A DNA stretch of 30,960 nt from an uncultured Asticcacaulis sp. (GTDB lineage Bacteria > Pseudomonadota > Alphaproteobacteria > Caulobacterales > Caulobacteraceae). The position numbers and the translations under genes are program-made. This document shows positions 10,711 through 30,960 of this stretch, piece after piece. The stretch is taken from positions 1 through 30,960 of the forward strand of contig CAMLPZ010000016.1 of the NCBI GenBank assembly GCA_946482045.1. The letters run 5' to 3'. The notes under the pieces are model-generated. The model made no database searches. It was not told the DNA's origin and was given only the letters and a program-made list of their open reading frames with translations. The first letter of the stretch is position 1. Every line of letters begins with the position of its first letter.

Positions 10711-10715
10711 AAATA

Positions 10716-10743
10716 GGCTGCGCGGGTCCCCACCCGTGCAGCC
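10716..10743 (+). terminator. Strong hairpin just after the TonB receptor stop (no U-tract)
   Basis: GGCTGC-g-CGGGT, loop CCCC, ACCCG-t-GCAGCC: an 11-bp stem with one mismatch, starting five bases after the stop codon. It lacks a T-run, so it may be an mRNA 3'-end stabiliser or a first part of termination rather than a complete intrinsic terminator. Confidence 0.5.
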
Positions 10744-10816
10744 GTGCGCCTTATCGCGCAGGTGTCCCGCCCGTCCAGCGGTCACCTTATCCTCCCGGAC
10801 ATCTGTTAAACTGCAG

Positions 10817-10851
10817 CCCTTCCGGTTTTCTTGTGGCCGGAAGGGTTTTTT
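10817..10851 (+). terminator. Intrinsic terminator between the TonB receptor and the halogenase genes
   Basis: CCCTTCCGG (10817-10825), an 11-base loop, then CCGGAAGGG (10837-10845), followed directly by six T residues (10846-10851). This is a textbook Rho-independent terminator on the plus strand. It ends 39 bases before the halogenase start codon, so it either ends the receptor transcript or acts as an attenuator of the downstream pair. Confidence 0.9.
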
Positions 10852-10890
10852 ATGAGAGCCTTAGGCCGGCAGAACATATCAGGCAGGAAC

Positions 10891-13907: not shown

Positions 13908-14090
13908 CTGTGAGCTCTCAGGAGGTTGTCCATCTGGCCTGAACCGAGGAGACTGAGGTTGCGAAGCTTCAGATTCCAGGACAGACCAGATGAACATGCA
14001 TAAGAATGCTTCTTTGACGCCGAAAGGGTTGAGAGGCCATGTACGTAGCGTCGTGGATGGAGGATTACGCTATTCTGCGGCGGCTTAAGC
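13908..14090 (+). mobile_element. IS481-family element remnant (left end and first codons of transposase)
   Basis: The stretch after the halogenase stop reads like the left end of an IS481 element: a non-coding leader, then ATG at 13990 opening MNMHKNASLTPKGLRGHVRS and VVDGGLRYSAAA before a stop at 14086-14088. The MN(M/I)HKNAxLTPxGR start followed by a VxxVxDGG stretch is typical of IS481 transposases, which then enter a helix-turn-helix with A-A-A, exactly where this copy breaks off. About 32 residues remain of a protein of normally 300 or more. No right end is visible. The boundaries are approximate. Confidence 0.7.
13990..14088 (+). pseudogene. IS481-family transposase N-terminal fragment
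   Basis: A 32-codon fragment. Its start resembles the N-terminus of IS481 integrase-type transposases (MNMHKNASLTPKG), and the frame ends in TAA immediately after SAAA, inside what should be the first helix-turn-helix. It lacks all catalytic residues and is non-functional. It lies tail-to-tail with the cyanophycinase-fusion gene, whose stop is at 14117-14119. Confidence 0.68.
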
Positions 14091-14116
14091 CAGAAAAACC
14101 TCTTGAGGCACCACAT

Positions 14117-16060: not shown

Positions 16061-16269
16061 GCAGGCTCCTGTGCGGTATGCAAGTGCAACAAATTTACGT
16101 CACCTTGACGGAGAATTTATGACGCGGCAACAAAATGATTGCGCGTAATAGCAAAATGGTGCCCGTTTCAGACAAGAAATTTCCAGATTCCGTCCATTTT
16201 GGAGCAGAACCTATCGGACCTCTGGAAGATTCGCAGTTGCAACAAAATCTTGCCCCCGGAGATTGAAAG
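16061..16269. promoter_or_regulatory. Divergent control region with three GCAACAAA repeats
   Basis: These 209 bases separate the cyanophycinase-fusion gene (leftward) from the TonB receptor (rightward). The exact octamer GCAACAAA occurs three times in the same orientation (16086-16093, 16127-16134, 16239-16246), twice extended to GCAACAAAAT. TTGACG at 16105-16110 could be a rightward -35 element. The ribosome site GGAGA precedes the ATG at 16270. The repeats could be regulator binding sites shared by both genes; this is inferred. Confidence 0.4.
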
Positions 16270-19062
16270 ATGCCGAATAACCGCCTGGCCCGATACTGCA
16301 AGCTGACGTTGTTGGCGGGTTGTAGTCTGTACGGCCTCCTTGCCACGGCATCGTTTGCGCAAGACACCGCCCCCTCGGCCGAGCCCACCGCCCAGGAAGA
16401 CGGCGGCGTCGTGACGATTCTTGGTTCGCGTATCCCGCGTGTCCGCAAGGAAGGCCCCGCCCCGGTCACCGTCATCACCTCCGAAGAAATCCGCGCCGGC
16501 GGCTATGCCAATGTGCCTGACGTGCTCAAGACCATCACGCAGAACGGCGGTGAAACCCAGTCGATGCAGTCGGGCAATGCCGCCGACTATTCGCCGGGCG
16601 CCCAGCAAGTGAACCTGCGTGGCCTGGGGCCAAACCACACCCTGGTCATGGTCAACGGCCGCCGCATCGCCGACTATCCTATGCCCTATAATGGTGACTC
16701 GAACTTCACCGACATCTCCAACATCCCGCTGGGCATGGTCGATGCCATCGAAGTCCTGAGCGGCTCGGCCTCGGCCATCTACGGCTCGGATGCCCTGGCC
16801 GGCGTCGTCAACTTCAAGCTCAAGCAGCGCGCCGACGGCACGACGCTCGACTACCGCTACGGCTGGACCGAAAAGGGCGGCGGCGCCTCGCACCGCTTCA
16901 ATGCCTCCTCTGGTTTCGACTTTGGCAAGCTGCACGGCGTCTTCGGCGGCGAAGTGATGATTCAGGACCCGGTCTATGGTTATCAGCGCAAGCGCCAGGA
17001 TTCGACCGCCGACGCGCCCGATCCCGACTACCAGATGGGCGTGACCAACTGGCAGCGCGTCGACTATGACGTCTACGCCATCGACGCCACCGAGGCCGAC
17101 TGCGCGCGCACGGCTTCGACCAACGGCGGCACGACCTCGCTCCAAGTGGATTCCTACTACGGCGACGGCGAAGACATTCTGGGCGCCTATTGCGGGTCGC
17201 AAACCGCAGTCGGTTACCGCACGGTGGTCTCCGACCGTCAGAGCGCCAACTTCGTCGGCTCGTTCACCTATGACCTGAGCGAAGACACCCACCTGTTCCT
17301 CGACGCCCAGGCCGGTGTCAGCAAGCTGAAACTGCTCAAGCGTCCGCTGTCCTGGGGCTATCAGGACGAAGACGGCAACGATGTCGGTGACTTCTACAAT
17401 GTCCACGCCTCACGCGATGACACCGACAACTGGTACCGCATCTTCACACCGGAAGAAATGGGCGGACTGGAACCGGCCATGCGCACCGTCGAAGCCAATA
17501 CCTTTACCCTGACCCCCGGCATTCGCGGCACCTTTGGCGAAGACGGCAAGTGGAACTACGAAGCGGCCATCAGCGCCAGCGTCTATAACGCCAAGGTCAC
17601 CTTCCCGATGATCAACGTCGCCAAGGCCAACGCCCTGTTCCTGGGGCCGAAGCTGGGTATGGACACGGACGATGAATATCTCGGCGAAGACGACGGCTAC
17701 GGCCTGCCGGTATTCAACGCCGATCCGACACGCTTCTATACGCCGCTTACGCCGGCCGAGTTCGCTTCGATCCGCGAAGAGAGCATCTATAAGCCACGCT
17801 CGTCGGTCGTCGAGGCTTCGCTCGAAATCGGCACGCGCGACCTGTTCCAGATGCCTGCGGGTCCGGTCGGTTTCAGCGCCATCGTCGAGGCCGGCCGCCA
17901 GGACTATAACCAGGGCACCGACCCGAAGGCGACCCAGCCCTACTATTTCAGCTGGGTGGACTTCACCGCCAAGGGCCACCGCACCCATTCGGCCGCCGCC
18001 GTCGAATTCTCCGTTCCGTTGCTGAAGACCCTGCAATCCAGCGTCGCAGCGCGTTACGACACCTTCGACTATGCCGGCCATAGCGTTGGCGAAGCGACCT
18101 ACAATCTCGGCCTCGAATATCGCCCGCTCGACACACTGCTGTTCCGCGCCGCCTGGGGCACGGGCTTCCGTGCGCCGGACCTGAACTATGTCTATCGCGG
18201 CACCGGCTTCGAAGAAGGCCGCGCGCCTGACTACTACCAGTGTATCCTCGATGGCGATTATCCGGATGACTGCGGTCGCGGTCCGCGCATCCGCGTCCGC
18301 ACCGGCGGCAACCTGAACCTCGAGCCGGAAACGTCGGAATCGTTCAATACCGGCTTCGTCTGGGCGCCCAACCGCGCCTTCGACATCAGCGTCGACTACT
18401 TCAAGATCGACATGAAGGGCCAGGTCGAGGACCTGCTGGTGTCCAACCTGACCCGCACCGAAGGCGAATGCCGCGGGGGCCTGCAGGACATCGATACGCC
18501 GACCTGCCAGGACGCCATCGCCCGCGTCACGCGTGACAGCGACGGCGACATCACCCAGGTCTTCGTCAGCCCGATCAACGTCTCGGTCGAAAGCACGTCG
18601 GGCGTCGACCTGTCGGCGCACGCCCGCTTCGATACGCCGGCTGGCCGCCTGACCCTTACCGGCAGCTATACGCACGTCATCGACCACGACTATGTCCGGT
18701 ATGTCGGCGATCCGTCGATCGACAAGCTGGCCAACGATTCCAGCTACTACATCCCGCGCGACAAGGCTTCTGGCAGCGCAAACCTGGTCACCGGCCCCTG
18801 GTCGATCAACGTCTCGGGCAACTACCTGAGCCGCCTGCCGAACTATGATGAAAACGCCTGGGTCGACGCCTATACGACCTTCAACGGTTCGGTGCAGTAC
18901 AAGGTCAATGACAAGGTCCGCGTCTCGCTGGCGATCACCAACCTGTTCGATACCCGGCCGCCCGTCGACGACACCTGGGTCAGCTACCCCTACTACAATA
19001 CCAGCTGGTACGACGGCCTCGGCCGCTCGGGCTTCCTGCAAGTCACCTACAAGCTGGACTAA
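16270..19062 (+). CDS. TonB-dependent outer-membrane receptor, probable peptide/amino-acid-linked uptake
   Basis: A 930-aa TonB-dependent transporter. Residues 1-30 form a signal peptide (cleavage after SFA). The TonB-box-like segment GVVTILGSRI (46-55) is followed by the plug: PVTVITSEEIRAGGYANVPD, QQVNLRGLGPNHTLVMVNGR, VDAIEVLSGSASAIYGSDA and GVVNFKLKQ, then the barrel with the late TBDR signature FRAAWGTGFRAPDLNYVYRG. It ends FLQVTYKLD, with aromatic and hydrophobic residues in the last strand. The plug style (GSRIPR, RIPxxxxEGPAPV, VDAIEVLxGSASAIYGSDA) is that of receptors often next to peptidases and amidohydrolases. Placement opposite the cyanophycinase fusion suggests uptake of its substrate or products. 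The ligand itself cannot be read from the sequence. Confidence 0.94.
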   Translation: MPNNRLARYCKLTLLAGCSLYGLLATASFAQDTAPSAEPTAQEDGGVVTILGSRIPRVRKEGPAPVTVITSEEIRAGGYANVPDVLKTITQNGGETQSMQSGNAADYSPGAQQVNLRGLGPNHTLVMVNGRRIADYPMPYNGDSNFTDISNIPLGMVDAIEVLSGSASAIYGSDALAGVVNFKLKQRADGTTLDYRYGWTEKGGGASHRFNASSGFDFGKLHGVFGGEVMIQDPVYGYQRKRQDSTADAPDPDYQMGVTNWQRVDYDVYAIDATEADCARTASTNGGTTSLQVDSYYGDGEDILGAYCGSQTAVGYRTVVSDRQSANFVGSFTYDLSEDTHLFLDAQAGVSKLKLLKRPLSWGYQDEDGNDVGDFYNVHASRDDTDNWYRIFTPEEMGGLEPAMRTVEANTFTLTPGIRGTFGEDGKWNYEAAISASVYNAKVTFPMINVAKANALFLGPKLGMDTDDEYLGEDDGYGLPVFNADPTRFYTPLTPAEFASIREESIYKPRSSVVEASLEIGTRDLFQMPAGPVGFSAIVEAGRQDYNQGTDPKATQPYYFSWVDFTAKGHRTHSAAAVEFSVPLLKTLQSSVAARYDTFDYAGHSVGEATYNLGLEYRPLDTLLFRAAWGTGFRAPDLNYVYRGTGFEEGRAPDYYQCILDGDYPDDCGRGPRIRVRTGGNLNLEPETSESFNTGFVWAPNRAFDISVDYFKIDMKGQVEDLLVSNLTRTEGECRGGLQDIDTPTCQDAIARVTRDSDGDITQVFVSPINVSVESTSGVDLSAHARFDTPAGRLTLTGSYTHVIDHDYVRYVGDPSIDKLANDSSYYIPRDKASGSANLVTGPWSINVSGNYLSRLPNYDENAWVDAYTTFNGSVQYKVNDKVRVSLAITNLFDTRPPVDDTWVSYPYYNTSWYDGLGRSGFLQVTYKLD

Positions 19063-19066
19063 AGCG

Positions 19067-19090
19067 AAGGCCGGGAGCGATCCCGGCCTT
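19067..19090. terminator. Hairpin terminator after the second TonB receptor
   Basis: AAGGCCGGGA (19067-19076), loop GCGA, TCCCGGCCTT (19081-19090): a perfect 10-bp stem four bases after the stop codon, followed by a short pyrimidine tract (TCT). On both strands it could end transcripts of the convergent genes. Confidence 0.8.
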
Positions 19091-19095
19091 TCTGC

Positions 19096-19144
19096 TTAGA
19101 TCGGAATGATTTTAGGTGGAAACTTCATTCCGATCTAAGTTTTT
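19096..19144. repeat. Second palindrome / terminator, possible dispersed extragenic repeat
   Basis: TTAGATCGGAATGA (19096-19109) and TCATTCCGATCTAA (19125-19138) are a perfect 14-bp inverted repeat around a 15-base loop containing TTTAGGTGGAAAC, followed by GTTTTTG. It works as a rightward intrinsic terminator. The long arms and TTTAGGTGGAA core resemble repetitive extragenic palindromes of alphaproteobacteria, as far as I recall. Only one copy is present here. Confidence 0.7.
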
Positions 19145-19197
19145 GCTTTGTCGCGATATTTTTGGCGAAAACCGCTGACACTTTTCGCCATATCGCT

Positions 19198-20979
19198 CTA
19201 GAAGCCCTGAGCGTCGTAAACCACCTGTCCGCCGACGAGGGTCATCAGTACCTTCGTGCCGCCGATCTCTTCCGGCGGGATGGCGAACAGGTCGCGGTCT
19301 ATGACGATCAGGTCGGCCAGCTTGCCGGTCTCAAGCGAGCCGGTCTCGGTTTCCTGGTGCAGGCTAAAGGCGGCGTCGATGGTCATGGCGCGAATGGCGC
19401 GCGTCCGTGACAGGCCGGGATCGACGCCCAGGCGTCCGGGGTATTTCTGGGCATCCGCGCCGACGGCCCGGCGCGTGACGGCGATTTGCAGGGCCAGCCA
19501 TTCGTTAAGGGTATCGACCGGCCAGTCACTGCCAAAGACAATGCGCGCGCCGTATATTTCCAGCAAACCGGAAGGTTCGAACAGGGCATGTCGCGCCGGT
19601 CCCAGATAGTCACGCACAGTGTCAACCGTATCTGGTCCCGGCTTGCCCCACTGGAATGACAGGACCGGCAAGGCGTTGAGTTCGGCGAAGCGGCCGTAGT
19701 CGGCCGGATCGACCAGCTCCGCGTGGGCGATCGCCGGGCGTACCGGACTTTGCGGCCGGGTGGCGCGCAGGACGGCCACGGCGTCGAGCGCCTGGCGGAC
19801 CGCGCCGTCGCCATCGGCGTGCATATGCGGATCAATGCCGGCGTCCGATAGCCGGATCAGCGTGTCCTGCAACTGCGCGTCGCTGAAATAGGGCTGTGGC
19901 CCGCAGTTCTTGCCAGGGCGCCAGTGCGGCGCCTCTTTCGTTCCGAAATTCTCGAAATAGGGTGCGACCATGACGCCGGTCAGCGACGGCGCGGCAACCA
20001 CACCGTCCAGGAAAAGCTTGGCTGTGTGCAACCTCAGTCCGGGCTCCGCCCCCTTGCCCAGCCGCTCATAGGCCTGCTTCTGGCGTAACACCTCCGCAAC
20101 GGCCTTGGCGGCATCGTAGTCGGTTCCTGCGTCGATCAGGACGCCAAAGTGCCCGCGCGCCGTCAGCCCGCCAGCCTTCATGACGTCGCGATAAGCGGTG
20201 AGCGTTTCGATATCGGTATAGGCGTCAAGAAAGGTGGTGATGCCCTGCTCGCGCATCATTTTAAGCGCGATTTGCGTCGCCTTGAGATTGGTCGCCGCGT
20301 CCGGCGCGGGGACATGCCGGCTGATCAGGTCCTGGGCGGCGTCTTCGAACCGGCCGGTGGCCTCGCCGCTGGCATCGCGTTGGATGATGCCGTCCTTGGG
20401 ATTGGGCGTATCCCGGGTGATGCCGGCAATCTCAAGCCCACGCCGGTTGGTCAGGTTGGAATGGCCGAACGACGACCGCACCATGATCGGCCGCGCCGTC
20501 CTCAGAGCATCGAGGTCGGCATGACCAAGTACCGTACCCGGCGGCTGCATGGCCTGTTCGTACCAGTTGATGACGACCAGCCATTTTGCCGCATCGGCCT
20601 CCGGCTCGGCATCCAGGCACTGCTGGATCTTCGCCTGGAACTGTGCGACCGTCAGCGCCTCATAGCGCAGATTGCAGTTCAGTTCGCGCAATCCCCCCGA
20701 TTGCGGATGCATATGGCCATCGACCAGGCCTGGCATAGCCATCCGGCCTTTCAGGTCGATTTTCCTGGTCCTGCGCCCGACGAAGGGTTTGGCGCCGGCA
20801 TCATCGCCAACATAGACGATCCGCCCGTCACGCACCGCCAGGCTTTGCGCGACGGTGTCCCTGGCATCGACCGTGTGGATACGGCCATTGACGAAAACCG
20901 TGTCGGCAGGCCTGGGCCTTGCAAGCGCCGGCGAAACACACAGCGCCAGAGCCAGAATACTTACGCAGAGGCTTTTCAT
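19198..20979 (-). CDS. YtcJ-like exported metal-dependent amidohydrolase (amidohydrolase 3 family)
   Basis: A 593-aa member of the amidohydrolase superfamily, D-aminoacylase/YtcJ branch. Residues 1-20 are a signal peptide (LALALCVSPALA), so it is periplasmic. Metal-site landmarks: HMH in PGLVDGHMHPQSGG (H89, H91), a probable bridging carboxyl-Lys in LHTAKLFLDGVV, His in DPHMHADGDGAVRQALD, His in AIAHAELVDP, and the Asp in IVFGSDWPVD. The C-terminus has the usual KLADLIVIDRDLFAIP. I choose ATG 20979, which has GGGAG eight bases upstream; TTG 20994 in the same frame overlaps that site. These enzymes cleave amide, N-acyl or carbamate bonds, and the exact substrate is not evident. Divergent from the M14 gene at 21121 and convergent with the TonB receptor. 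Confidence 0.9.
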   Translation of the reverse strand: MKSLCVSILALALCVSPALARPRPADTVFVNGRIHTVDARDTVAQSLAVRDGRIVYVGDDAGAKPFVGRRTRKIDLKGRMAMPGLVDGHMHPQSGGLRELNCNLRYEALTVAQFQAKIQQCLDAEPEADAAKWLVVINWYEQAMQPPGTVLGHADLDALRTARPIMVRSSFGHSNLTNRRGLEIAGITRDTPNPKDGIIQRDASGEATGRFEDAAQDLISRHVPAPDAATNLKATQIALKMMREQGITTFLDAYTDIETLTAYRDVMKAGGLTARGHFGVLIDAGTDYDAAKAVAEVLRQKQAYERLGKGAEPGLRLHTAKLFLDGVVAAPSLTGVMVAPYFENFGTKEAPHWRPGKNCGPQPYFSDAQLQDTLIRLSDAGIDPHMHADGDGAVRQALDAVAVLRATRPQSPVRPAIAHAELVDPADYGRFAELNALPVLSFQWGKPGPDTVDTVRDYLGPARHALFEPSGLLEIYGARIVFGSDWPVDTLNEWLALQIAVTRRAVGADAQKYPGRLGVDPGLSRTRAIRAMTIDAAFSLHQETETGSLETGKLADLIVIDRDLFAIPPEEIGGTKVLMTLVGGQVVYDAQGF

Positions 20980-22346: not shown

Positions 22347-24734
22347 TTATACTTCCTTTCCGAGGCCTGCCCTTGGCGGGTTACAACTTTTGCGCAGATA
22401 ATCCTGTACATCAGCATAGCTGTTGTCGCGATCCGTCTTGCTGAGCTGACCCCGGCTATCGAGAAGCTTCCACGCGGCCTTGGTCTCGGCCCATGCCTGG
22501 CAGGCCTTGGCATAGTGGCCCGCATTGTAGAAATTCCCGCCCCGCGTCGCCAGCGTCGTCGCCAGACCACGAACTGCGAACGGTGCGCCGTCGGCACGCT
22601 CAATGCGCAGTTTCTGAGTGGCGATGACCTGATCGCTCACTGTTTCGGCTTGGCCGTACATCTTCTGGTCGGTGAGAACCTGAGCATAGACATCACCGGT
22701 CGCCGCCACCAGTTCCAGGACGCCAAGGTCGGAACTGTCGCGCGCTTTCCAATCTGAGGCCAGCTTATACGCCTCGGCGATCGAGGCCCTGGCTTCAGCG
22801 TCGCGCATATTGGTGCGGTGAACGATGGCATCGTAGCGCAGGCCGAGAATTAGGCCGCGCAGCGCCTTGGGGTTGCCCGCGTCACGACGGACCCGTTCCC
22901 GATTTACGGCGATGTTTTCAGCGAGGGCGGCACGGGCTTGCTCCGGCTGTTTGAGCTTGTGACAAGCCTCCCCCAGCAGACGCAACGAGGCGCTGCGCGC
23001 CGCCAGCACCTTCAGGTCTGAACGGTATCGCTGCGGCATGGCCTTGAAGACGGCATCCGCTCGCAACAACACCTCGCGTCCCTCCTTGAACTTGTCGTCC
23101 CACAGCCAGGAATCGCCTTCCGCCTGTATAGCCGTCAAATACAGCGCGGCGAGTTTCGCATCCGCAGAGGCCAGGGTCTTCAACAGGCCTTGCGCCATTA
23201 TCGCCTGACGCCTTGCTTTTTCAGGATCATTATCGTTGTAGAGGTTATTCCCCGACTGCTCGACCAGCAACTCGGCATAGGCCGCAGCCGCATCGGCATC
23301 ATCCGGGCTCTGTTCGACCGCCGCCTTCAGTACCGCCTCGCCGCGCGCCAGCAGGGCCGTCGCGTCCTTGTACCGGCCAAGCGTGCTTTCCTGGCCACCA
23401 CCCATTACCTGGGACAGGCGGACAAGTCCCTTCCCGGCCTCGACACGAACGGCGACGGGCGCGTTTGTATCGTTTGCCAGCTTGTCGAGATAGTCGACCC
23501 CGGTTTTCGCCAGCAGTTCGCGGGCTTTCGTCGCACCCTCAACCTTGCTGACCTCATCATAGACGTCGAACAGGAGCGTGTTGGCGATGGCGCGTGTTTG
23601 TTCGAAGCGCATTTCGGCCTCGGTCCGCGCCAGCTGGGCCTTGTGATTAGCCAGCAACACAAGGCCGAAAGCCGCAACGACGGCGATGGCGGCAACGGAC
23701 GCCACCAGGACACCAAAGCGATGGCGGCCAGCGAACTTGGCGAAGACGTAGCGCCGCCCGCCGTTCACAGCGGTTACCGGCCAGCCACTGCGATAGGCGT
23801 CAGTATCGGCGCGCAGGGCGTCGGCGGTCGGATAACGGTCCCCGGGCGCGATCGCCGTGGCGCGGGCGATAATGGCGTCGAGCTCGGGATCGGTTTGCGC
23901 GGCAAGCAGGTGCTCAAGCAGCTTCCCCAGCGAATAGATGTCAGCGCCCGTCGTGACTTCGGAGCTATGCATGCGCTCGGGCGCCGCGAAGCCGGGGGTA
24001 AGGCTCAGGCTGGCGGTGCCGCGCGACCGCTCGCCCACGCTGCCTTCGCTGTCGGCCAGACGTGCGATGCCAAAATCGATCAGCTTGACCACGCCGTCGC
24101 GGGTGACCAGCACGTTCGATGGCGTCAGGTCGCGGTGGACGATCAGGTTGCGGTGCGCGAAGGCAACGGCGCGGCACACGTCGCAAAACAGGGCCAGGCG
24201 CGCCTCACGGCTCAAAGCGGCTTCATCGGCGTATTGCAGGACCGGCAGGCCGTCGACCCATTCCATGACGATGAAGGGCTGGCCCTGCTCCGTTTCGCCG
24301 CCGTCATATAGCTGGGCGATATTGGGATGGGACAGGCCCGCCAAAATCTGGCGTTCGCGCTGGAAGCGCTCGATCAGGGACTGCGACAACAGACCCGACT
24401 TGATGATCTTGATGGCGGCGACGTGATTGAAATCACCCGTCATGCGCTCACCACGGTAGACCGCCCCCATGCCGCCGCGACCGATCAGGCCAGTGATGCG
24501 GTAGGCCCCGATGCGTTCGGGTGCGGGTTCTTCTTCCAGGTAGTCGGACGCCGAACCCGTCTTCAGGTTCAGAAGCGTCTCCGCCTTGAGCATGGCTTCA
24601 AGACGTCGCCTCAGCCTAGGCTTGCCCTTTGTCTGCGCTTTGATCCATGTGGGTCGATCGGCTTCGGGGATGTCGAGGAGCGCTTCGAACAAGGCAAGCG
24701 CCAGGCGTTCCGTTTCCAGATCGCTCTCAGTCAT
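22347..24734 (-). CDS. Membrane-anchored Ser/Thr protein kinase with TPR-like C-terminal sensor region
   Basis: A 795-aa Hanks-type kinase. A short helical leader (1-70) precedes the kinase domain (about 77-315): P-loop IGRGGMGAVY (84-93), Lys109 in AAIKII, catalytic loop VHRDLTPSNVLV (199-210) and IDFGIA (219-224), then the activation loop and GADIYSLGKLL. The catalytic loop has Thr where most bacterial kinases have Lys (HRDLKPxN). A transmembrane helix (about 340-362) leads to a roughly 430-aa alpha-helical, TPR-like region (repeated A-x-A-Y/L patterns such as DDADAAAAYAELL and ARAALAENIAVN) on the periplasmic side. The gene starts inside the sigma-factor gene (8-bp overlap), so both are made together. 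It likely controls the sigma factor or an envelope response; this role is inferred. Confidence 0.92.
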   Translation of the reverse strand: MTESDLETERLALALFEALLDIPEADRPTWIKAQTKGKPRLRRRLEAMLKAETLLNLKTGSASDYLEEEPAPERIGAYRITGLIGRGGMGAVYRGERMTGDFNHVAAIKIIKSGLLSQSLIERFQRERQILAGLSHPNIAQLYDGGETEQGQPFIVMEWVDGLPVLQYADEAALSREARLALFCDVCRAVAFAHRNLIVHRDLTPSNVLVTRDGVVKLIDFGIARLADSEGSVGERSRGTASLSLTPGFAAPERMHSSEVTTGADIYSLGKLLEHLLAAQTDPELDAIIARATAIAPGDRYPTADALRADTDAYRSGWPVTAVNGGRRYVFAKFAGRHRFGVLVASVAAIAVVAAFGLVLLANHKAQLARTEAEMRFEQTRAIANTLLFDVYDEVSKVEGATKARELLAKTGVDYLDKLANDTNAPVAVRVEAGKGLVRLSQVMGGGQESTLGRYKDATALLARGEAVLKAAVEQSPDDADAAAAYAELLVEQSGNNLYNDNDPEKARRQAIMAQGLLKTLASADAKLAALYLTAIQAEGDSWLWDDKFKEGREVLLRADAVFKAMPQRYRSDLKVLAARSASLRLLGEACHKLKQPEQARAALAENIAVNRERVRRDAGNPKALRGLILGLRYDAIVHRTNMRDAEARASIAEAYKLASDWKARDSSDLGVLELVAATGDVYAQVLTDQKMYGQAETVSDQVIATQKLRIERADGAPFAVRGLATTLATRGGNFYNAGHYAKACQAWAETKAAWKLLDSRGQLSKTDRDNSYADVQDYLRKSCNPPRAGLGKEV

Positions 24735-25284
24735 TGTCCACCGGGTGGTTCAGGGCGTCTGTGAGCCAGGCCCGCGCCACCGTCCACCGCCGCTTGATCG
24801 TCGCTTCGGACATGCCGGTCACTTCGGCGATATCCTCTACCGTCATGCCGCCGAAATACCGCATCTCCACCAGTTCCATGAGACCCTCGTCAATTGCCTT
24901 CAAACGGATCAGCGAGGAATCGAGGGAAATCAGGTCATAGCGCAGGTCGCCTGCGACGCGAGTCGTCAGTTCGACCTTGTGGTGCTGGCGTTTGTCGCTG
25001 CGCTTCTGGCGGGCGTAGTCGATGAGAATGTTGCGCATCATGCGCGACGCCAGCGCGATCAGGTGGGCGCGATCATTGGCGTCGATGCGTTCGATCTGCA
25101 TCAGGCGCAGGATGACGTCGTTGATCAGATCGCCGGTTGACAGCGACGAATTCTGTTCACGGCGCAGGCGGGCGGCGGCAATCTGACTGAGTTCCGGGTG
25201 CAGACGGCTGATCAGACGGTCGCGGGCACTCATCTCGCCGGCGCGCCACTGCCCGATCAAAACGCGCGTCTGTCCGATCTCCAT
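24727..25284 (-). CDS. ECF-type RNA polymerase sigma factor paired with Ser/Thr kinase
   Basis: A 185-aa sigma-70-family factor. Region 2 is seen at about 20-95 (LHPELSQIAAARLRRE, TGDLINDVILRLMQ, then LIALASRMMRNILIDYARQK), and region 4 at about 125-180 (LVEMRYFGGMTVEDIAEVTG, MSEATIKRRWTVARAWL). The wording matches the TIGR02999-like group, which commonly sits beside Ser/Thr kinases rather than a classical anti-sigma factor. I choose ATG 25284, with AGGGTAGGGG just upstream; longer in-frame starts up to 25347 add a non-conserved leader. The last codons overlap the kinase start. No anti-sigma gene is present, so phosphorylation by the linked kinase is a plausible switch. It probably drives the divergent operon through the motif at 25378-25409. 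Confidence 0.9.
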   Translation of the reverse strand: MEIGQTRVLIGQWRAGEMSARDRLISRLHPELSQIAAARLRREQNSSLSTGDLINDVILRLMQIERIDANDRAHLIALASRMMRNILIDYARQKRSDKRQHHKVELTTRVAGDLRYDLISLDSSLIRLKAIDEGLMELVEMRYFGGMTVEDIAEVTGMSEATIKRRWTVARAWLTDALNHPVDND

Positions 25285-25377
25285 GCCCCTACCCTCATCC
25301 CGACAGGTAACAACGATACCCGACTTTGCGGCCAAAAGCAAAAGCACGGCGGGAGCTTACATTTTTTCAATAGGCCC

Positions 25378-25409
25378 TGAACCGTTTTGTGACGCCATCG
25401 CGCTTACTC
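25378..25409 (+). promoter_or_regulatory. Candidate ECF-type promoter of the protease/zinc-ribbon operon
   Basis: TGAACCGTTTT (25378-25388), 12 bases, CGCTTACTC (25401-25409), located 51 bases before the ATG at 25461. The same two blocks with the same 12-base gap recur at 30929-30960. The layout fits a -35/-10 pair of an alternative sigma factor, most likely the one encoded next door. Read directly as a repeat; promoter function is inferred. Confidence 0.62.
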
Positions 25410-25460
25410 GGATAGAGCGGTCCATCTGCCGGCCGCCGTCCTTTCCGGGGGTCGAAACCT

Positions 25461-26258
25461 ATGCAGCTATCCAAACCAACAGACCTGTCAAGTCTTCTGA
25501 CATCAAAGGTCAAGGCGCGCATGGCTGGCGGCGGCCTGATGGGCAACCGCGCCGCCTGGTATATCGCCGTCGCCGCCCTGCCGCTCGTCTTCTATTTCAT
25601 GGGCCAGGCCGAGATGGCCAGCCAGCGCCAGCAGATGATGGACCAGATCCTCAATCCGCAGGGCTTCCAGCAGCAACAGCAGATGGACCCGCAGATGCAG
25701 GTCCAGCCAATGAACGCACCCAACCTCTCGCAGAATACGGGCGACATCCCCTACGGCCTGGCGCCGGTCGACCTGCCGATCGAAAACATCAGCCAGGAGA
25801 CCAATGTCTGGTGCTGGGCGGCGGTTTCGCAACAGATCATCGCCGCTTCACGCGGCCGCGAACAGACGCCACAACAGTGCGCCCTGGTCGCCACCGCCAA
25901 CAATGCCCCCGCCGAAACCTGCTGCGCCCAGCAGAACCCGCAGTGCGTCGTCACGGGCACGCTACAGCAGATCCAAGGCCTCATCCAGCACTACGGCGGC
26001 CGGACCTCGTCCTATGCCGAACCGACGGATCCAATGACGCTTTATCGCACGCTCAAGCAGGGGCACGCCGTCGTCATTGGCCTTCAGACCAATCCGTCGT
26101 CCGGCCACGTCGTCGTGGCGCGCGGCATGTCCTTCCAGGAAACGCCGCAGGGAGTCACTGCCCTCGTCCACATCAACGATCCCATGGCGCAATTCACACA
26201 GCCCGTGCCCTTCCAGCAGATCGCCGGAATCTGGCGCCAGGCCATCATCGTCAACTGA
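25461..26258 (+). CDS. Membrane-anchored papain-like cysteine protease (C70/AvrRpt2-like)
   Basis: A 265-aa protein. A transmembrane helix at about 31-48 (AAWYIAVAALPLVFYF) is followed by a Gln/Met-rich linker (52-85) and a papain-like domain. The active-site signature is ETNVWCWAAVSQQIIAAS with Cys118 and an oxyanion Gln112 six residues before it; His216 in SSGHVVVARGM and Asn/Asp 239-240 in HINDPM complete the likely triad. This WCWAA...GHxVVxxG arrangement is that of C39-like/AvrRpt2 (C70) proteases. Four or five extra cysteines (C140, C154, C155, C162) suggest disulphides and extracytoplasmic placement. GGGGG lies before ATG 25461. It is the first gene after the candidate promoter. Substrate unknown; neighbouring envelope proteins are candidates. 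Confidence 0.83.
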   Translation: MQLSKPTDLSSLLTSKVKARMAGGGLMGNRAAWYIAVAALPLVFYFMGQAEMASQRQQMMDQILNPQGFQQQQQMDPQMQVQPMNAPNLSQNTGDIPYGLAPVDLPIENISQETNVWCWAAVSQQIIAASRGREQTPQQCALVATANNAPAETCCAQQNPQCVVTGTLQQIQGLIQHYGGRTSSYAEPTDPMTLYRTLKQGHAVVIGLQTNPSSGHVVVARGMSFQETPQGVTALVHINDPMAQFTQPVPFQQIAGIWRQAIIVN

Positions 26259-26291
26259 TCATCATTCGCTGAGCTTTCCGGGACTCTTGCC

Positions 26292-27182
26292 ATGACACAC
26301 ACAGCCACCGCCCCGTCCGCAGACCAGACCGTCTGCCCAAACCCTGCCTGCAGCGCGCAAAACCGCGCCGGAACGCGATTCTGCGCGGCCTGCGGCACGT
26401 CCCTGGCCGGCTCCTCCGGGGGGGTTGCGCCAGGGACGAACCCAATCCCGCCGGCTCCGCCTGTCGCTCCGTCGATACCGCCAATGCGCCCCAACTTCGC
26501 CGGCAATGTCGCGGCGGTGCCGACCGACCGGACGCTGGACCTGCCGATGGCGACGCACCAAGCCTATGCCCACCTGACCGAGGCGCTGCAATCGATGAGC
26601 GCCGACATCACCCAGCCCCATCATCCGACCGGCCTGCTGGCCAGCATTCCGTACAAGTCGCTGGGCACGCCCCTGCGCTTCCGCTGCCAGGCCGTGCTCC
26701 AGCCGACCGGACCGTCCGCCACGCGCCTCAGCTACGGCATCAAGGTCGACTGGTCGTCCACCTTTGTCGTCCTCGGCATCCTGGTCGCCGTCGGCCTGAT
26801 CAATATCATGTTCCTCAGCATGTGGGTCGGGGTGCTGGCGCCGCTGTGCTCGATCGGCGGCATCGGCTGGGCGGTCTATGACTATGCGGTCGGCATCCCC
26901 AATAAGCTGGCAGCGCAGGTCCAGAAGAAGTTGGCGACCGCACCGGTCCAGCCTGTCCAACCCGCGCCGACGCCCATGCCTGCCGCCGCGCCCGTCGCAG
27001 CCCCTGTCACTGGGCCATCCCTCGTCAAGACGCCTGATCCCGCGCCCGCCCCGGCCCCGGCTTCGGCCAGCGAAGACGACGTCATCGCCAAGATCGAGAA
27101 GCTGGCCGTGCTCAAGGGCAAGGGCCTGATCAGCGACGCCGAGTTCGAACAGCGCCGCACCGAACTGCTCGACCGGCTCTGA
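26292..27182 (+). CDS. Zinc-ribbon, two-TM protein with C-terminal SHOCT domain
   Basis: A 296-aa protein with four parts: an N-terminal zinc ribbon (C15, C20, C31, C34 in CPNPACSAQ...FCAACG), a Pro-rich linker, a small alpha/beta domain (about 80-155), two adjacent transmembrane helices (about 157-200), a Pro/Ala-rich linker, and a SHOCT domain (about 263-296: IAKIEKLAVLKGKGLISDAE then FEQRRTELLDRL). SHOCT domains are short oligomerisation or docking modules at protein ends. The alpha/beta plus TM-hairpin part resembles the two proteins encoded next. Both tails should be cytoplasmic. It starts 33 bases after the protease stop and is probably co-transcribed. No enzymatic motif; function unknown. 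Confidence 0.72.
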   Translation: MTHTATAPSADQTVCPNPACSAQNRAGTRFCAACGTSLAGSSGGVAPGTNPIPPAPPVAPSIPPMRPNFAGNVAAVPTDRTLDLPMATHQAYAHLTEALQSMSADITQPHHPTGLLASIPYKSLGTPLRFRCQAVLQPTGPSATRLSYGIKVDWSSTFVVLGILVAVGLINIMFLSMWVGVLAPLCSIGGIGWAVYDYAVGIPNKLAAQVQKKLATAPVQPVQPAPTPMPAAAPVAAPVTGPSLVKTPDPAPAPAPASASEDDVIAKIEKLAVLKGKGLISDAEFEQRRTELLDRL

Positions 27183-27199
27183 CGCAAAAGGGGGGACGC

Positions 27200-27745
27200 A
27201 TGGACAGCTACTGGAAAACCGTCCGGGCCGCGACCGGCGCAACCGCCGAAGACGCCAGGGCCTGCCTGTTCGCAGCCATGACGGGTTGCGGCTTTACCCA
27301 GGAACGCACCCTGGGCCCCGACGCCTGGTCCTTCGTCCGACGCTCATGGCTGCTGGGGCTGGCGACGCGTCACGAATGGCAGGTCAGCTTTGCAACGAAA
27401 GGTCCGCACACCGTCATCTCGGTCCGCTGCGGGCTGGCACCGCGCGCCCTCTACTATCTCGGCATGCTGGCCGGGTTCGGCGTAGCGATGGCGGCGATGA
27501 TGGTCTTTGCCAACCATATGGACGAGACCTGGCTGATTGCCGTGATCGCAGCCGGTTACGCGCTTCCCGTCGTCCATGCGTTTGCCATCCGCCTGCAGGC
27601 CAGCACACTTGAAAAGCGCTTGTGGCCACAGCTTTCCACGCTTCGCCCCTTTGCGTGGTCGCATACCGTCCTGCGCAGCCTGAACTTCGCCTATGGCGAG
27701 GACCGCGTCGTGCCAAGCCGCGAACTGGGGAGCCAAACACGATGA
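27200..27745 (+). CDS. Two-TM protein of unknown function, paralogue of the next gene product
   Basis: A 181-aa protein that I do not recognise as a named family. It starts with SYWKTVRAATGATAEDARAC and AAMTGCGF, has a beta-rich segment (WSFVRRSWLL, HEWQVSFATK, HTVISVRCGL), a transmembrane hairpin at about 84-135 (YYLGMLAGFGVAMAAMMVFA and TWLIAVIAAGYALPVVHAF), and a charged tail. The order of helix, strands, TM pair, tail is repeated in the next protein, with matching YWK, A-R-x-L and AM...GF positions. AAGGGGGGACGC precedes ATG 27200, 17 bases after the preceding stop. It overlaps the following gene by four bases. Membrane location is clear; the job is unknown. Confidence 0.75.
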   Translation: MDSYWKTVRAATGATAEDARACLFAAMTGCGFTQERTLGPDAWSFVRRSWLLGLATRHEWQVSFATKGPHTVISVRCGLAPRALYYLGMLAGFGVAMAAMMVFANHMDETWLIAVIAAGYALPVVHAFAIRLQASTLEKRLWPQLSTLRPFAWSHTVLRSLNFAYGEDRVVPSRELGSQTR

Positions 27746-28218
27746 TCTCTCCCTATGTCTACTGGAAATCGGCTTCGGCCTGTCTCGACGTGCCCGCCCC
27801 CGCCGCGCGGCGGCTGCTGTGCAAGGCCATGGCAGAACAGGGCTTTATGGTTCCCGCCGATCACGCCGGCAACAGCCTGACCTTTACCCGCCCGGTCCCC
27901 CTGCCCGGCCTGCCGCACCTTCAGGTCTGGACCGCCCGCATCGACGGCCAGGGCAAGCGCACGCACATCAATATCGAGTTCGGCCTCGGCGCCACGCCGG
28001 GCACCTGGGGCTATCTCTGTGCCGTGACGATCCTGACGATCGCGCCGATCCTGATGCCAGGCTTTGAGATGGCCGCCATGATCCCGATCCTGTGGCTGAT
28101 GGGCTGTGTGCTGTGGATGCAGTGGCGCCCGGGGCGTCAGGAAGCGCAGATGTGGCAATCGATCGGCATGGGCGCCGCCGTCAGCGAGCGCGCAACATCA
28201 TGGAGGGCCGTCGAGTGA
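27742..28218 (+). CDS. Two-TM protein of unknown function, paralogue of the preceding gene product
   Basis: A 158-aa protein starting at ATG 27742, which overlaps the upstream TGA (ATGA). It begins SPYVYWKSASACLDVPAPAA with RRLLCKAMAEQGF, aligning with the previous protein, then has strands (SLTFTRPVPL, HLQVWTARID, HINIEFGLGA) and a TM hairpin (about 95-138: YLCAVTILTIAPILMPGFEM, MIPILWLMGCVLWM). The tail is short. The paired arrangement suggests a duplicated small membrane domain, perhaps forming a heteromer; this is inferred. Its stop overlaps the GTG start of the next gene (GTGA). Confidence 0.75.
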   Translation: MISPYVYWKSASACLDVPAPAARRLLCKAMAEQGFMVPADHAGNSLTFTRPVPLPGLPHLQVWTARIDGQGKRTHINIEFGLGATPGTWGYLCAVTILTIAPILMPGFEMAAMIPILWLMGCVLWMQWRPGRQEAQMWQSIGMGAAVSERATSWRAVE

Positions 28219-29666
28219 CGCAAGGCGCCCCCAAATTCTGCGGCAATTGCGGCAACGGCCTGATGCCCGGCGAACGGTTCTGCGGCGCATGTGGGGCCGA
28301 CATTGGCGGCGATAGCGCGGCCGCCCCGATCATGCCGTGGCACGGTCACCGCTGTTCGGCGTGTGATGACGGTGCGCGTCTGCGCAGCGATCAGGTCTTC
28401 TGCCCGGTCTGCCGCTGGCTGCGGCCGCTGGCGTCCGACTACCACCTGCCGGTCGACTACTGGATGTGGGATCTCGACGCCGCCGCCATGCGCACCCTGC
28501 GCAATTCCGGCCCGATCAATGCGGCGGCCCAGGCCCTGTCGCAGCGCCTGGGCCGTCCCTATCTCGAAGCCGCCGCCAACGGCATCCGGCTCGGCCCCGA
28601 ACAAATGCCCGACCTGTTCAACCAGGCCATCCGGGCGGCCCGCGTCATCGGTCTGGGCTACATGCCCGAAATCTATATCTCCGGCGACCAGATGTGGGAC
28701 TGCATCACGCTGGGCGACGAGTCCGGGGCGTTCATCGTCGTCGGCTCGGTCCTGCTGAATTTCGGAGACGCAGAGCTGCTGTACCTGCTGGGCCGCGAAA
28801 TGGGCCACGTCGCCGCCGGCCACGCCTTGTGGAACACCGTCTCGCGCTTCATGAGCGGCCAGTCCGCCAGCCGCACCATCATGGGTGAAGGCGTCATGCA
28901 GTTCCTCAACCCGACCAAGATCGTCGAAAGCGCCGTCGAAGCGCCTTTGATGGCCTGGGCGCGGCAGTCGCAGATCACCGCCGACCGCGCCGGCGCGCTG
29001 GTCGTCGGCGATGCCGGCATCGTCCGCCGCGTCACCGTGCAATGGGCGATGAAGTCGTTCCCGGTCCTGAAAAAGCTGAGCTTCGATGCCCTGGAGCGCC
29101 AGATCGCTGATACGGTCGGCGCCACGCATCAGGTCGCCGAAATGACCATGGGCAGCCAGCCCTTTCTGATGCGGCGCCTGCGCCTGCAGCAGGAGTTTTC
29201 CGACACGTCCGACTTCGTGCAATGGCGGCGCGTCATCGACCACTGGATTGACGCCGAAACGCCGAAGGCCCCGCCCGTCGCCGCCGCTTCGCCCAGACAG
29301 CCGGTCGATGACGGCCACGTCCGGCTGAACTGCATCGCCTGCCAGGGGCCGCTGCGCTTTGATCGCGGCCGCTTCGCCAACGAGACCGACGCCATCAAGG
29401 TGCGCTGCCCCAATGCCGATTGCCGCAAGGTCCTTGAGGTCCGGCCCGCCCCGCCGAAATCGGCCCGCATCGAGCGCCTGTCGCCCGAGCAGGACGACAA
29501 TTCGCTGCGTATCGACTGCGCCGCCTGCCGCCGCCCCCTGCGCGTCCTCAAGACCGCGCTCGAAGGCAAGCGCGAGGTGAAGATCCGCTGCGCCAATGCC
29601 GAATGCCGCACCGTGCTTACGGTCCGGCCGCCTGCCGAAATTCAACCTGATGTCCTGACCGATTGA
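28215..29666 (+). CDS. Zinc-ribbon protein with a degenerate M48-like metalloprotease domain
   Basis: A 483-aa protein from GTG 28215 (GGAGG about eight bases upstream; GTGA overlap with the previous gene). It has two N-terminal zinc ribbons (CGNCGNGLMPGERFCGACG at 9-27; CSAC...CPVC at 47-66), an M48 peptidase-like middle (about 75-345) and two similar C-terminal zinc-binding repeats (CIACQGPLRF...CPNADC, about 373-403; CAACRRPLRV...CANAEC, about 435-464). The M48 HExxH motif is replaced by REMGH (194-198) in LLGREMGHVAAGHALWN, and the third-ligand ExxAD region reads QITADRAG (253-257). Two of three zinc ligands thus appear lost, so this is probably a pseudo-protease acting as binding scaffold. 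No signal peptide or clear TM segment, so cytoplasmic or peripheral. Confidence 0.8.
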   Translation: MTQGAPKFCGNCGNGLMPGERFCGACGADIGGDSAAAPIMPWHGHRCSACDDGARLRSDQVFCPVCRWLRPLASDYHLPVDYWMWDLDAAAMRTLRNSGPINAAAQALSQRLGRPYLEAAANGIRLGPEQMPDLFNQAIRAARVIGLGYMPEIYISGDQMWDCITLGDESGAFIVVGSVLLNFGDAELLYLLGREMGHVAAGHALWNTVSRFMSGQSASRTIMGEGVMQFLNPTKIVESAVEAPLMAWARQSQITADRAGALVVGDAGIVRRVTVQWAMKSFPVLKKLSFDALERQIADTVGATHQVAEMTMGSQPFLMRRLRLQQEFSDTSDFVQWRRVIDHWIDAETPKAPPVAAASPRQPVDDGHVRLNCIACQGPLRFDRGRFANETDAIKVRCPNADCRKVLEVRPAPPKSARIERLSPEQDDNSLRIDCAACRRPLRVLKTALEGKREVKIRCANAECRTVLTVRPPAEIQPDVLTD

Positions 29667-29681
29667 GAAAGGAAGTAACCC

Positions 29682-30437
29682 ATGGCCCGTACTGACGAAA
29701 ATCCCTACGACCCGCCCGTCCTGCCCGATATCGAAGGCGTAATCCAAGGCATGGGGGGCTACCCCCAGCCGCAATGGCCGGAAGACGTCATCCTTCCGGA
29801 CAACAAGGACCGCATGGAAGACCAGCCGCCGGTCGATGCCGCGCCAGAACAGCCGGTACCAATTCCACCGCCCCTGCCCGACCATATTCCCCGTCCCGAG
29901 TCACAGCCTGAGCCGGAAGCGACCGAGACATCGCAGTCGGGCGAATTGGACGGTGAGTTACTGGCCCAGAACAGTCTCATCGACAAGGCCCAGCAGCTTG
30001 CAGGCAAGATTGAGGCTGTGTTCCATGAGCGACAGGTGGGGTCCGAAGTCGGCGCCGATGCCGCCGCGTCACTGTCTGCGATTAGTGGCGCGGTCAAGAA
30101 CGCGGATTATGGCGCGGGCGGACTTGGCGGTCACATCAAGGAGGCCATTGAAACGCTTGGTCATGACACGGCCGAACAGCCGGTCGTGGAAGCCCAGGCT
30201 GACGAGGTCTATGAAGCCGAGACCCTCCCGGCCGAAGTCGATGATGCCAGCGTTGGCAACGCTGCCAAAAGCGTGTTTCATGCTCTGGGGGAAATCGGCG
30301 GCAAGCTCAAGGACGCGATCGAAGCTGCTCAGCATGACGACGCCATCATCGAAACCCAGGCGGATGACGTCTACGAAGCCGAAACAGCGACGGTCGAGGC
30401 CGACGACGACAGCGATCCTTACGACAGCGCCCCCTAA
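29682..30437 (+). CDS. Acidic low-complexity protein with internal duplication
   Basis: A 251-aa protein with no family I recognise. The N-terminal 90 residues are Pro/Glu/Asp-rich and look disordered (PVPIPPPLPDHIPRPESQPE). Two helical segments (KAQQLAGKIEAVFHERQ; KSVFHALGEIGGKLKDAIEA) alternate with a duplicated acidic segment: AQADEVYEAETLPAEVDDAS and TQADDVYEAETATVEADDDS. A GHIKEAIETLGHD stretch before the first copy matches GKLKDAIEAAQHD before the second, so the duplicated unit is about 60 residues. AAAGGAAG precedes ATG 29682, 15 bases after the zinc-ribbon gene. No signal peptide, TM helix or cysteine. Perhaps a binding partner of the zinc-ribbon proteins; this is inferred. Confidence 0.7.
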   Translation: MARTDENPYDPPVLPDIEGVIQGMGGYPQPQWPEDVILPDNKDRMEDQPPVDAAPEQPVPIPPPLPDHIPRPESQPEPEATETSQSGELDGELLAQNSLIDKAQQLAGKIEAVFHERQVGSEVGADAAASLSAISGAVKNADYGAGGLGGHIKEAIETLGHDTAEQPVVEAQADEVYEAETLPAEVDDASVGNAAKSVFHALGEIGGKLKDAIEAAQHDDAIIETQADDVYEAETATVEADDDSDPYDSAP

Positions 30438-30443
30438 CCGGCC

Positions 30444-30914
30444 ATGCCTGTTCCCCCCGACCCGAACGCCGTCATAGTGGCCAGCGATGGTGAGATCCAT
30501 GATGCGCACCCTGAAGTCCATGACGACGGTCGGGCGCGCGTCGATATCGCTACGGAGGACGACGCCTCAGCGTTGGAAGCGGCCAGCGCGGATATTGTCG
30601 AGGCGGAAAGCGCAAGCGACGACCGCGAGGAGGACCTGCGCCTTGGCCGGACGGCACCCGCGCAGCAGGCGGCGGCTGCCCAGTCCGCCGCCCAGGTGAC
30701 GGCGACCACGACGGCAGACCCCGCTGCCCGCGATGACGCCACCCTGGCGCCACCACGTAAACCCGACGATCCGCAAGCCATCGATGATCCAGTCACGCCG
30801 GAAAAGGCCGATGAACCGCTCAACCCCTACTTGACCGACGACAAGACCGATCCGGCTCCCGATCCAGTGGCCGACGACGGCACGCCCGGCGACGACGCGG
30901 CGGCATCCGAATAA
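30444..30914 (+). CDS. Short acidic, probably disordered protein
   Basis: A 156-aa protein encoded six bases after the preceding stop, so surely in the same transcript. It is rich in Asp, Glu, Ala and Pro, has no cysteine or hydrophobic segment, and looks disordered throughout. DDASALEAASADIVEAESAS (about 33-52) echoes the E-A-E/VEA wording of the preceding protein, which hints at common origin. The composition could reflect real low-complexity coding, but the intact frame, spacing and codon pattern favour a gene. Function unknown. The last gene before the second promoter-like motif. Confidence 0.6.
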   Translation: MPVPPDPNAVIVASDGEIHDAHPEVHDDGRARVDIATEDDASALEAASADIVEAESASDDREEDLRLGRTAPAQQAAAAQSAAQVTATTTADPAARDDATLAPPRKPDDPQAIDDPVTPEKADEPLNPYLTDDKTDPAPDPVADDGTPGDDAAASE

Positions 30915-30928
30915 TTTTTCACAACGCC

Positions 30929-30960
30929 TGAGCGGTTTTCCGCCCCCGCCACGCTTACTC
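30929..30960 (+). promoter_or_regulatory. Second copy of the candidate ECF-type promoter, at the window edge
   Basis: TGAGCGGTTTT (30929-30939), 12 bases, CGCTTACTC (30952-30960). It matches the motif at 25378-25409 in 18 of 20 motif positions with identical spacing, though the 12-base spacers differ. It begins 15 bases after the acidic gene stop, so it should drive a gene beyond the window. The gene it serves cannot be seen. Confidence 0.58.

Follow-up and report, generated by a model that had tools for sequence, protein, structure and literature searches.

A candidate envelope-associated system in Asticcacaulis linking an ECF43-like sigma factor to a pseudo-M48 protein and hyperacidic partners

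What might a protease-like protein with a degraded metal site do in an operon that also encodes two strongly acidic proteins, opposite the genes of a kinase and a sigma factor? The question is raised by positions 22347–30914 of contig CAMLPZ010000016.1 (assembly GCA_946482045.1) of an uncultured Asticcacaulis sp., which was analyzed as a stretch of 30,960 nucleotides (the window), probably an entire metagenome contig, as one protein encoded in it is listed with a longest contig of 30960 bases. An earlier note on this DNA had described a Ser/Thr kinase and an extracytoplasmic function (ECF) sigma factor encoded opposite seven co-directional genes, among them genes for a membrane papain-like protease, an inactive-looking M48 zinc-ribbon protein, and two acidic proteins. 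All nine genes were found as described, the kinase and sigma factor genes on the minus strand and the other seven on the plus strand. We lean, if only slightly, toward reading them as one envelope-associated system, in which a kinase-activated ECF43-like sigma factor would induce a membrane-tethered, noncatalytic pseudo-M48 carrier for a polyanionic client.

The pseudo-M48 protein and its acidic partner

The fifth plus-strand gene encodes a protein that has an M48 fold as judged by profile (PF01435, 33.7 bits; gathering score, 20.3). Its AlphaFold2 (AF2) model (predicted local distance difference test (pLDDT), 84.2; predicted TM-score (pTM), 0.67) has ZMPSTE24/Ste24p as its first PDB matches in Foldseek (probability 0.99–1.00, E-value 1.4e-3 at best, TM-score ~0.3). 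REMGH stands in place of the HExxH motif, and QITAD in place of the third-ligand motif. The gene starts with GTG in a 4-bp overlap; an alternative ATG at 28200 is possible.

The same changes occur throughout the family. The 63 loci considered below came from scanning 84,980 species, each represented by a single genome, with genes called by a codon model, and Arg at the first His position is biased in them because the peptide pattern of that scan contained REMG. Residue counts refer to 120 listed M48 homologues, the best 120 of 388 matches among 7992 scored, which were not chosen by the REMG pattern. The HExxH counterpart in all 120 is R[EQ]MG[HR] or RELGH, with Arg replacing the first His throughout (95 REMGH, one of them in a protein with a second, unrelated match elsewhere; 12 RQMGH; 12 REMGR; and 1 RELGH). 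At the position of the third ligand, 72 of the 120 have E, 31 have A, and 14 have Q; D, H, and no match occur once each. Since HExxH is degraded in every listed homologue, the M48 protein is predicted to be a pseudo-protease, in agreement with its inactive look in the earlier note. It resembles the M48 peptidases Ste24/ZMPSTE24, HtpX, and abylysin in fold, by profile and predicted model, but differs from them in having Arg for the first zinc-binding His (120/120 listed), a variable third ligand, and zinc ribbons at both ends.

The gene following that of the pseudo-M48 protein lies on the same strand and encodes an acidic, Lys/Arg-poor protein in 57 of 57 testable cases, which are mainly from Proteobacteria, Gemmatimonadota, and Acidobacteriota and are related rather than independent. 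Among background genes (called genes of at least 80 amino acids and over four genes away from the M48 gene), 6 of 413 fit this composition rule. The 57 cases are 54 called loci and the window (55/55), together with loci L014 and L029, in which the codon model had missed the gene and which were read by eye from the list of open reading frames. Three loci were dropped, two in which the contig ends 2 bp past the M48 gene (L003 and L040) and one in which it ends 235 bp past it (L016); the single open frame seen after the M48 gene of L016 is not acidic. Four distant loci (L060–L063, 37–45 bits), which are not counted among the 57, have no acidic neighbor (0/4).

The acidic family found in Acidobacteriota (c1) and that found in Proteobacteria (c4) are homologous (hhalign 98.4%, score 105.8), as compared with scores of at most 13.8 in 30 column shuffles and 15.6 for the reversed control. 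Cys is absent from 39 of 39 c1/c4 members, all of which are acidic and very low in Lys and Arg. Neither Lys nor Arg occurs at all in L028:2920–3897 (325 amino acids), L031:5629–6567 (312 amino acids), or L044:3292–4092 (266 amino acids). In a Pfam scan of three c1/c4 members, none reached a gathering score. Proteobacteria with c4 usually have one or two other acidic genes between the pseudo-M48 gene and c4; the homologue in L001 of AC2, the second of the window's acidic proteins, is weak (31 bits). The acidic partner in L026 (11157–12518) has repeated DTDGDG motifs that are EF-hand-like and below Pfam's cut-off.

Co-inheritance was evident in 200 genomes of the order that contains Asticcacaulis YBE204. 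The pseudo-M48 protein occurs in six of these and c4 in the same six (p 1.2e-11), while the C70 protease of the operon occurs in three, all among those six (p 1.5e-5); both p values treat genomes as independent, which they are not. In 199 genomes sampled from the phylum of genome G026, the M48 profile found matches in 19, strong in 10 (E ≤ 1.1e-140) and weak in nine (8.7e-37 or worse). Among individual relatives, Asticcacaulis YBE204 (L002) has the arrangement of the window, kinase and sigma factor included, and A. biprosthecium C19 (L001) has kept the operon, with its sigma–kinase pair ~77 kb off. The kinase of that distant pair is 70% identical to the window's. As the gene set recurs in other genomes, it is beyond chance. 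The earlier note had asked whether the genes form a recurring unit, with homologues scattered without co-occurrence as the contrary outcome; the genes were found together.

Layout of the locus and its promoter motif

The genes and candidate promoters of the locus are as follows.

22347–24734, minus strand: transmembrane Ser/Thr (Hanks-type) kinase whose long half past the transmembrane segment is TPR-like (Pkinase, 1.8e-35)
24727–25284, minus strand: ECF sigma factor, TIGR02999 (ECF43-like); 8-bp overlap with the kinase gene
25378–25406, plus strand: candidate operon promoter TGAACC-N17-CGCTTA (position weight matrix (PWM) score 18.8, locus held out)
25461–26258, plus strand: papain-like C70/C39-like protease with a membrane anchor fused at its N-terminus (PF12385, 26.7 bits)
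26292–27182, plus strand: ZSH, a zinc ribbon, helix-grip domain, two transmembrane helices, and SHOCT (PF09851, marginally over cut-off)
27200–27745, plus strand: SM1, a small protein with a soluble domain and two transmembrane segments (hydropathy)
27742–28218, plus strand: SM2, a paralogue of SM1 (hhalign 98.4%)
28215–29666, plus strand: pseudo-M48 protein with zinc ribbons at the N- and C-terminus (PF01435, 33.7 bits)
29682–30437, plus strand: AC1, hyperacidic and Cys-free (isoelectric point 4.05, net charge −43)
30444–30914, plus strand: AC2, hyperacidic and Cys-free (isoelectric point 4.05, net charge −29)
30929–30957, plus strand: second candidate promoter, TGAGCG-N17-CGCTTA, differing from TGANCC by one base (motif match)

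The gaps between the plus-strand genes are, in order, 33, 17, −4, −4, 15, and 6 bp, as short as the earlier note had held, and the operon spans 25461–30914. The window ends right after the second copy of the promoter motif (30929–30960). Because of this copy at the window end, and because the closest relatives (L001 and L002) have two further genes there, an acidic c4 gene followed by a lipoprotein-like gene, the unit reaches past 30914. The gene that the second promoter copy would drive, beyond the end of the window, is probably the acidic c4.

The C70 protease scores above the gathering score of PF12385 (19), and its triad (Cys118, His216, and Asp240) is invariant in 25 of 25 aligned sequences, which upholds the claim of a membrane papain-like protease. 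Of the proteins encoded by the operon, C70 alone is likely to be an active enzyme. These two features are shared with peptidase C70 (the AvrRpt2 family) and C39-like papain proteases. Unlike these, the protein is membrane-anchored here and is encoded in an operon of environmental bacteria, with no effector context seen. The anchor, fused to C70 in the window, is encoded by a separate gene in L001 and L002. Gemmatimonadota loci L014 and L018 have divergent C70 relatives (29 and 47 bits), and one C70 homologue (P0172) has its own N-terminal zinc ribbon, a fusion that links C70 to zinc-ribbon proteins.

In ZSH, SHOCT is marginally over the cut-off and the zinc ribbon under it (AF2 pLDDT, 80); a protein search with ZSH gave 14 matches. 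By fold search, its soluble domain has a BamC/KA1-like helix-grip fold, which says nothing of function because the fold is common, and ZSH differs from BamC N-terminal and KA1-type domains in adding a zinc ribbon, SHOCT, and two transmembrane helices. The earlier note had grouped three small membrane proteins as related; SM1 and SM2 are paralogues, but their match to ZSH is weak (45.7% and 68.9%). Within the three genes upstream of the pseudo-M48 gene, a ZSH-family protein is encoded in 19 of 58 loci and a DUF4190-like membrane protein in 20 of 58, giving one or the other in 39 of 58. The single DUF4190-like member scanned scored 24.6 bits (Pfam cut-off, 35), and 19 of these 20 proteins have two CxxC pairs if the in-frame sequence upstream is counted with them.

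The kinase (795 amino acids) contains HRD and DFG motifs and, by hydropathy, a single transmembrane segment (residues 338–366); its TPR match is weak and under the Pfam cut-off. The sigma factor scores 158.7 bits against TIGR02999 (cut-off, 126.15), a family into which we take ECF43 sigma factors to fall, and the codon model favors its start at ATG 25284 over GTG 25347. The pairing resembles the ECF43 type, an already known kind. As in EcfP–PknT of Vibrio parahaemolyticus and EcfK–PknS of Xanthomonas citri, a TIGR02999-type ECF gene overlaps the gene of a transmembrane Ser/Thr kinase. According to three reports, the kinase of ECF43 pairs phosphorylates a Thr in the sigma2.2 region (PMC8999054, PMC8103513, PMC13147305). 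One of the three adds that EcfK with this Thr changed to Ala still functions in vivo and that sites in the linker are also important (PMC13147305). ECF43 sigma factors have uncharged residues with a conserved Thr (QTTA type) where others have the acidic DAED motif of sigma2.2; of the relatives aligned here, 9 of 11 have a Thr motif (QPT or HPT) there, whereas the window and L002 have STGD. By analogy, the window's kinase should activate the adjacent sigma factor. The outputs differ, with polymyxin resistance and a type VI secretion system reported for those pairs, and C70, zinc-ribbon, pseudo-M48, and acidic genes as the candidate targets here.

Upstream regions of the loci contain the motif TGANC[CG]-N17-CGCYTA, which was picked after reading those regions and matched 16 times in 1.09 Mb at its spacing of 17; spacings of 13–16 and 18–21 gave 4, 0, 3, 5, 0, 1, 0, and 2 matches. 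Seven of the 16 matches lay outside the inspected regions (L006 at 8433, 9100 (but for its first base), and 13340; L007 at 77, 4087, and 5348; and L008 at 12025), and six of these seven precede system genes. In A. biprosthecium C19, the motif precedes the acidic c4 gene. For the stricter TGANCC form in the L007 genome, six of seven matches fall within one 22-kb stretch around the system. The L006 genome has 15 motif matches, three of them in the locus, as against none in a reversed control. Its other sites precede a c48-family gene (a family also present in L007 and L008), several secreted-looking proteins, and a run encoding SEL1-like lipoprotein and clostripain-like proteins, the labels lipoprotein, clostripain-like, and SEL1-like having been assigned by reading the sequences; for one site, no gene on its strand lies within 2.9 kb. 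An initial promoter form, GTTTT-N13-GCTTACTC, was rejected, as it is exact in the window only and its relaxed forms do not stand before system genes elsewhere.

With a PWM built without the locus being tested and a line at the 99th percentile of 286 other genes (15.8), sites reached the line before C70 in 4 of 10 cases, anchor-like genes (chosen by a Gln-rich rule) in 4 of 7, ZSH in 7 of 20, c4 in 5 of 16, lipoprotein in 2 of 4, and c48 in 1 of 3; none did so before SM genes (0/6). Of 19 genomes, 14 have the TIGR02999 sigma family, and a motif site was found in 9 of the 14 versus none of the five sigma-lacking ones (p 0.02). In this comparison the site in L005, where scores are just under the line (15.3 and 13.6), is counted as absent, and the five sigma-lacking genomes share much of their gene order and could stem from a single loss. 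The site is retained in L001, L015, and L017, where the sigma–kinase pair is away from the locus (in the L015 genome the kinase gene was called as two pieces). That the motif tracks the presence of the sigma family supports control of the operon by the sigma factor, as the earlier note had supposed.

Proposed mechanism and alternatives

In the system that we favor, the transmembrane kinase would sense an extracytoplasmic signal and activate the adjacent ECF43-like sigma factor, which would drive TGANC[CG]-N17-CGCYTA promoters upstream of the genes for the anchor/C70, the zinc-ribbon/SHOCT protein, the acidic c4 protein, and the lipoprotein. Rather than cutting, the pseudo-M48 protein would bind hyperacidic, Cys-free, Lys/Arg-poor clients through its M48 groove and zinc ribbons, and the zinc-ribbon protein with two transmembrane helices would tether this complex to the inner membrane. 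There, the membrane-anchored C70 may act on the client or on a partner. The most likely purpose would be the handling, and possibly the export, of polyanionic clients under envelope stress; envelope handling or export is suggested by the composition of the clients and the intact triad of C70. Export is a guess, because neither a transporter family nor a signal peptide was seen by eye.

Several results weigh against this account. On the output side, C70 (E ≤ 1e-10) is lacking from most core genomes, occurring in 7 of 36 pseudo-M48 genomes picked from the 63 loci, every time within the locus, and is therefore an add-on. Inspection by eye showed no signal peptide on the acidic proteins and no transporter family among the widely shared gene clusters, transporters not having been the object of a targeted search. 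On the regulatory side, the sigma2.2 key site of the window and of L002 reads STGD, not the usual Thr motif (QPT or HPT in the other 9 of 11 aligned); because of this, the phosphosite of the window's sigma factor may be shifted. Genome-wide enrichment of the strict motif over the control appeared in one set of six genomes (46 vs 13) and was lacking in a second six (11 vs 14). No PWM site reached the line before the sigma gene (0/7) or the kinase gene (0/9), nor in the sigma-bearing L003, L014, L016, L018, and L005. Core loci persist in five genomes without a TIGR02999 sigma factor at E ≤ 1e-20, and the core therefore does not need it. The sigma family is also present in 4 of 6 core versus 47 of 194 other genomes of the order (p 0.04), a weak link, and is thus less tightly tied to the core than c4 is.

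The composition of the acidic proteins allows another account, possible but less probable, in which they are type-I-like or leaderless secreted proteins that fold on Ca2+, with the membrane proteins and the pseudo-M48 protein as secretion chaperones and C70 as a trimming enzyme. A Cys-free, acidic composition low in Lys and Arg, together with Ca-binding-like repeats, is typical of RTX and type I substrates. The 39 c1/c4 members have this composition, and DxDxDG repeats of the Ca-binding-like kind occur in some partners (that of L026, and c4 of L001 and L002, which end in DVDGDG); from their sequences, some acidic partners may bind calcium. However, no ABC, MFP, or TolC genes were recognized among the shared clusters in the maps read, and no glycine-rich RTX nonapeptides were noticed on reading, neither having been the object of a targeted search.

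The net charges of AC1 and AC2 could instead mark them as anionic decoys that sequester cations or cationic antimicrobial peptides, their low Lys/Arg content resisting trypsin-like attack. In keeping with this, EcfP, an ECF43 sigma factor, is reported to respond to polymyxin and confer resistance (PMC8999054). Decoys would need export, though, as no signal peptide was seen by eye, and we consider this account unlikely.

We give no greater credence to the working idea of the earlier note that the sigma factor induces an envelope proteolysis or quality-control complex. The intact C70 triad, the membrane proteins, and the kinase-linked ECF sigma factor are consistent with it, and M48 relatives such as HtpX work in membrane quality control. 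The part concerning the sigma factor held up, as described above; the proteolytic part fared poorly, with the M48 site degraded in all 120 listed homologues, C70 in just 7 of the 36 core genomes, and an acidic protein as the most constant partner.

Somewhat more doubtful is that the sigma–kinase pair is a chance neighbor and the motif belongs to another regulator. The five core genomes without the sigma factor and the frequency of TIGR02999 in the order (51 of 200 genomes) would fit this, but the motif is absent from those same five genomes (alike in gene order and perhaps one loss) and is present where the pair sits elsewhere in the genome. Finally, the M48-like protein might have kept metalloprotease activity with its altered metal site and process the acidic protein, which we hold very improbable. 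The Glu and the second His are each retained in 108 of the 120 listed homologues, but the first His is Arg in all 120, the Glu is Gln in 12, the second His is Arg in 12, and the third ligand varies among E, A, Q, D, and H.

Returning to the pseudo-M48 carrier, some Proteobacteria add a ZSH-type membrane protein, C70, a membrane anchor, and a lipoprotein to the core. A more general form of the proposal, which we offer tentatively and hold less likely than the one above, is that of a widespread bacterial system in which a dead M48 protease became a dedicated carrier of Lys/Arg-poor polyanionic proteins, docked at the membrane by zinc-ribbon proteins. In some Proteobacteria, this system would have been placed under the control of a kinase-activated sigma factor and have acquired a papain-like protease. 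If true, this would show a protease fold reused as a binding scaffold, and a new kind of machinery for protein polyanions that serves to export them without a leader, to buffer cations or metals, or to neutralize cationic attack. That the pair is kept in all testable cases over several phyla, with an acidic partner for which no Pfam family was found, points to a conserved cell process, and the promoter motif provides a candidate target set for an ECF43-like sigma factor that makes the system testable in Asticcacaulis.

The regulatory half is of a known kind. No description of the output module was found in the open-licence literature, and it is apparently undescribed and new, consistent with the earlier impression that the set fits no known pathway. 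An anti-phage defense system was considered and rejected. PADLOC matched the kinase domain, and its models for regulators matched the sigma factor (E 0.003 or weaker). None of the seven plus-strand proteins had a match at E ≤ 0.01, and at E ≤ 0.1 ZSH alone had one (E 0.064).

Further genes near the motif and in the window

A clostripain-like protein is encoded near the system in L007 (17123–19843) and is third in a gene run that follows the motif in the L006 genome (L100:650–3304); it may be another protease of the regulon. In two genomes, the motif is followed by a 204-amino-acid protein that looks secreted (L104:8197–8811 and L105:13187–13801). L105 has an additional sigma gene of the same kind ~3.6 kb from the gene of this protein, on the same strand.

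Elsewhere in the window, 1401–2654 is an IS66-type transposase gene (DDE_Tnp_IS66), and the neighboring open reading frames at 613–1325 and 2657–2977 resemble parts of that element. Positions 7786–20979 encode two TonB receptors, two tandem tryptophan halogenases, an asparaginase-2 family protein, and an amidohydrolase, a cluster that looks like one for nutrient uptake.

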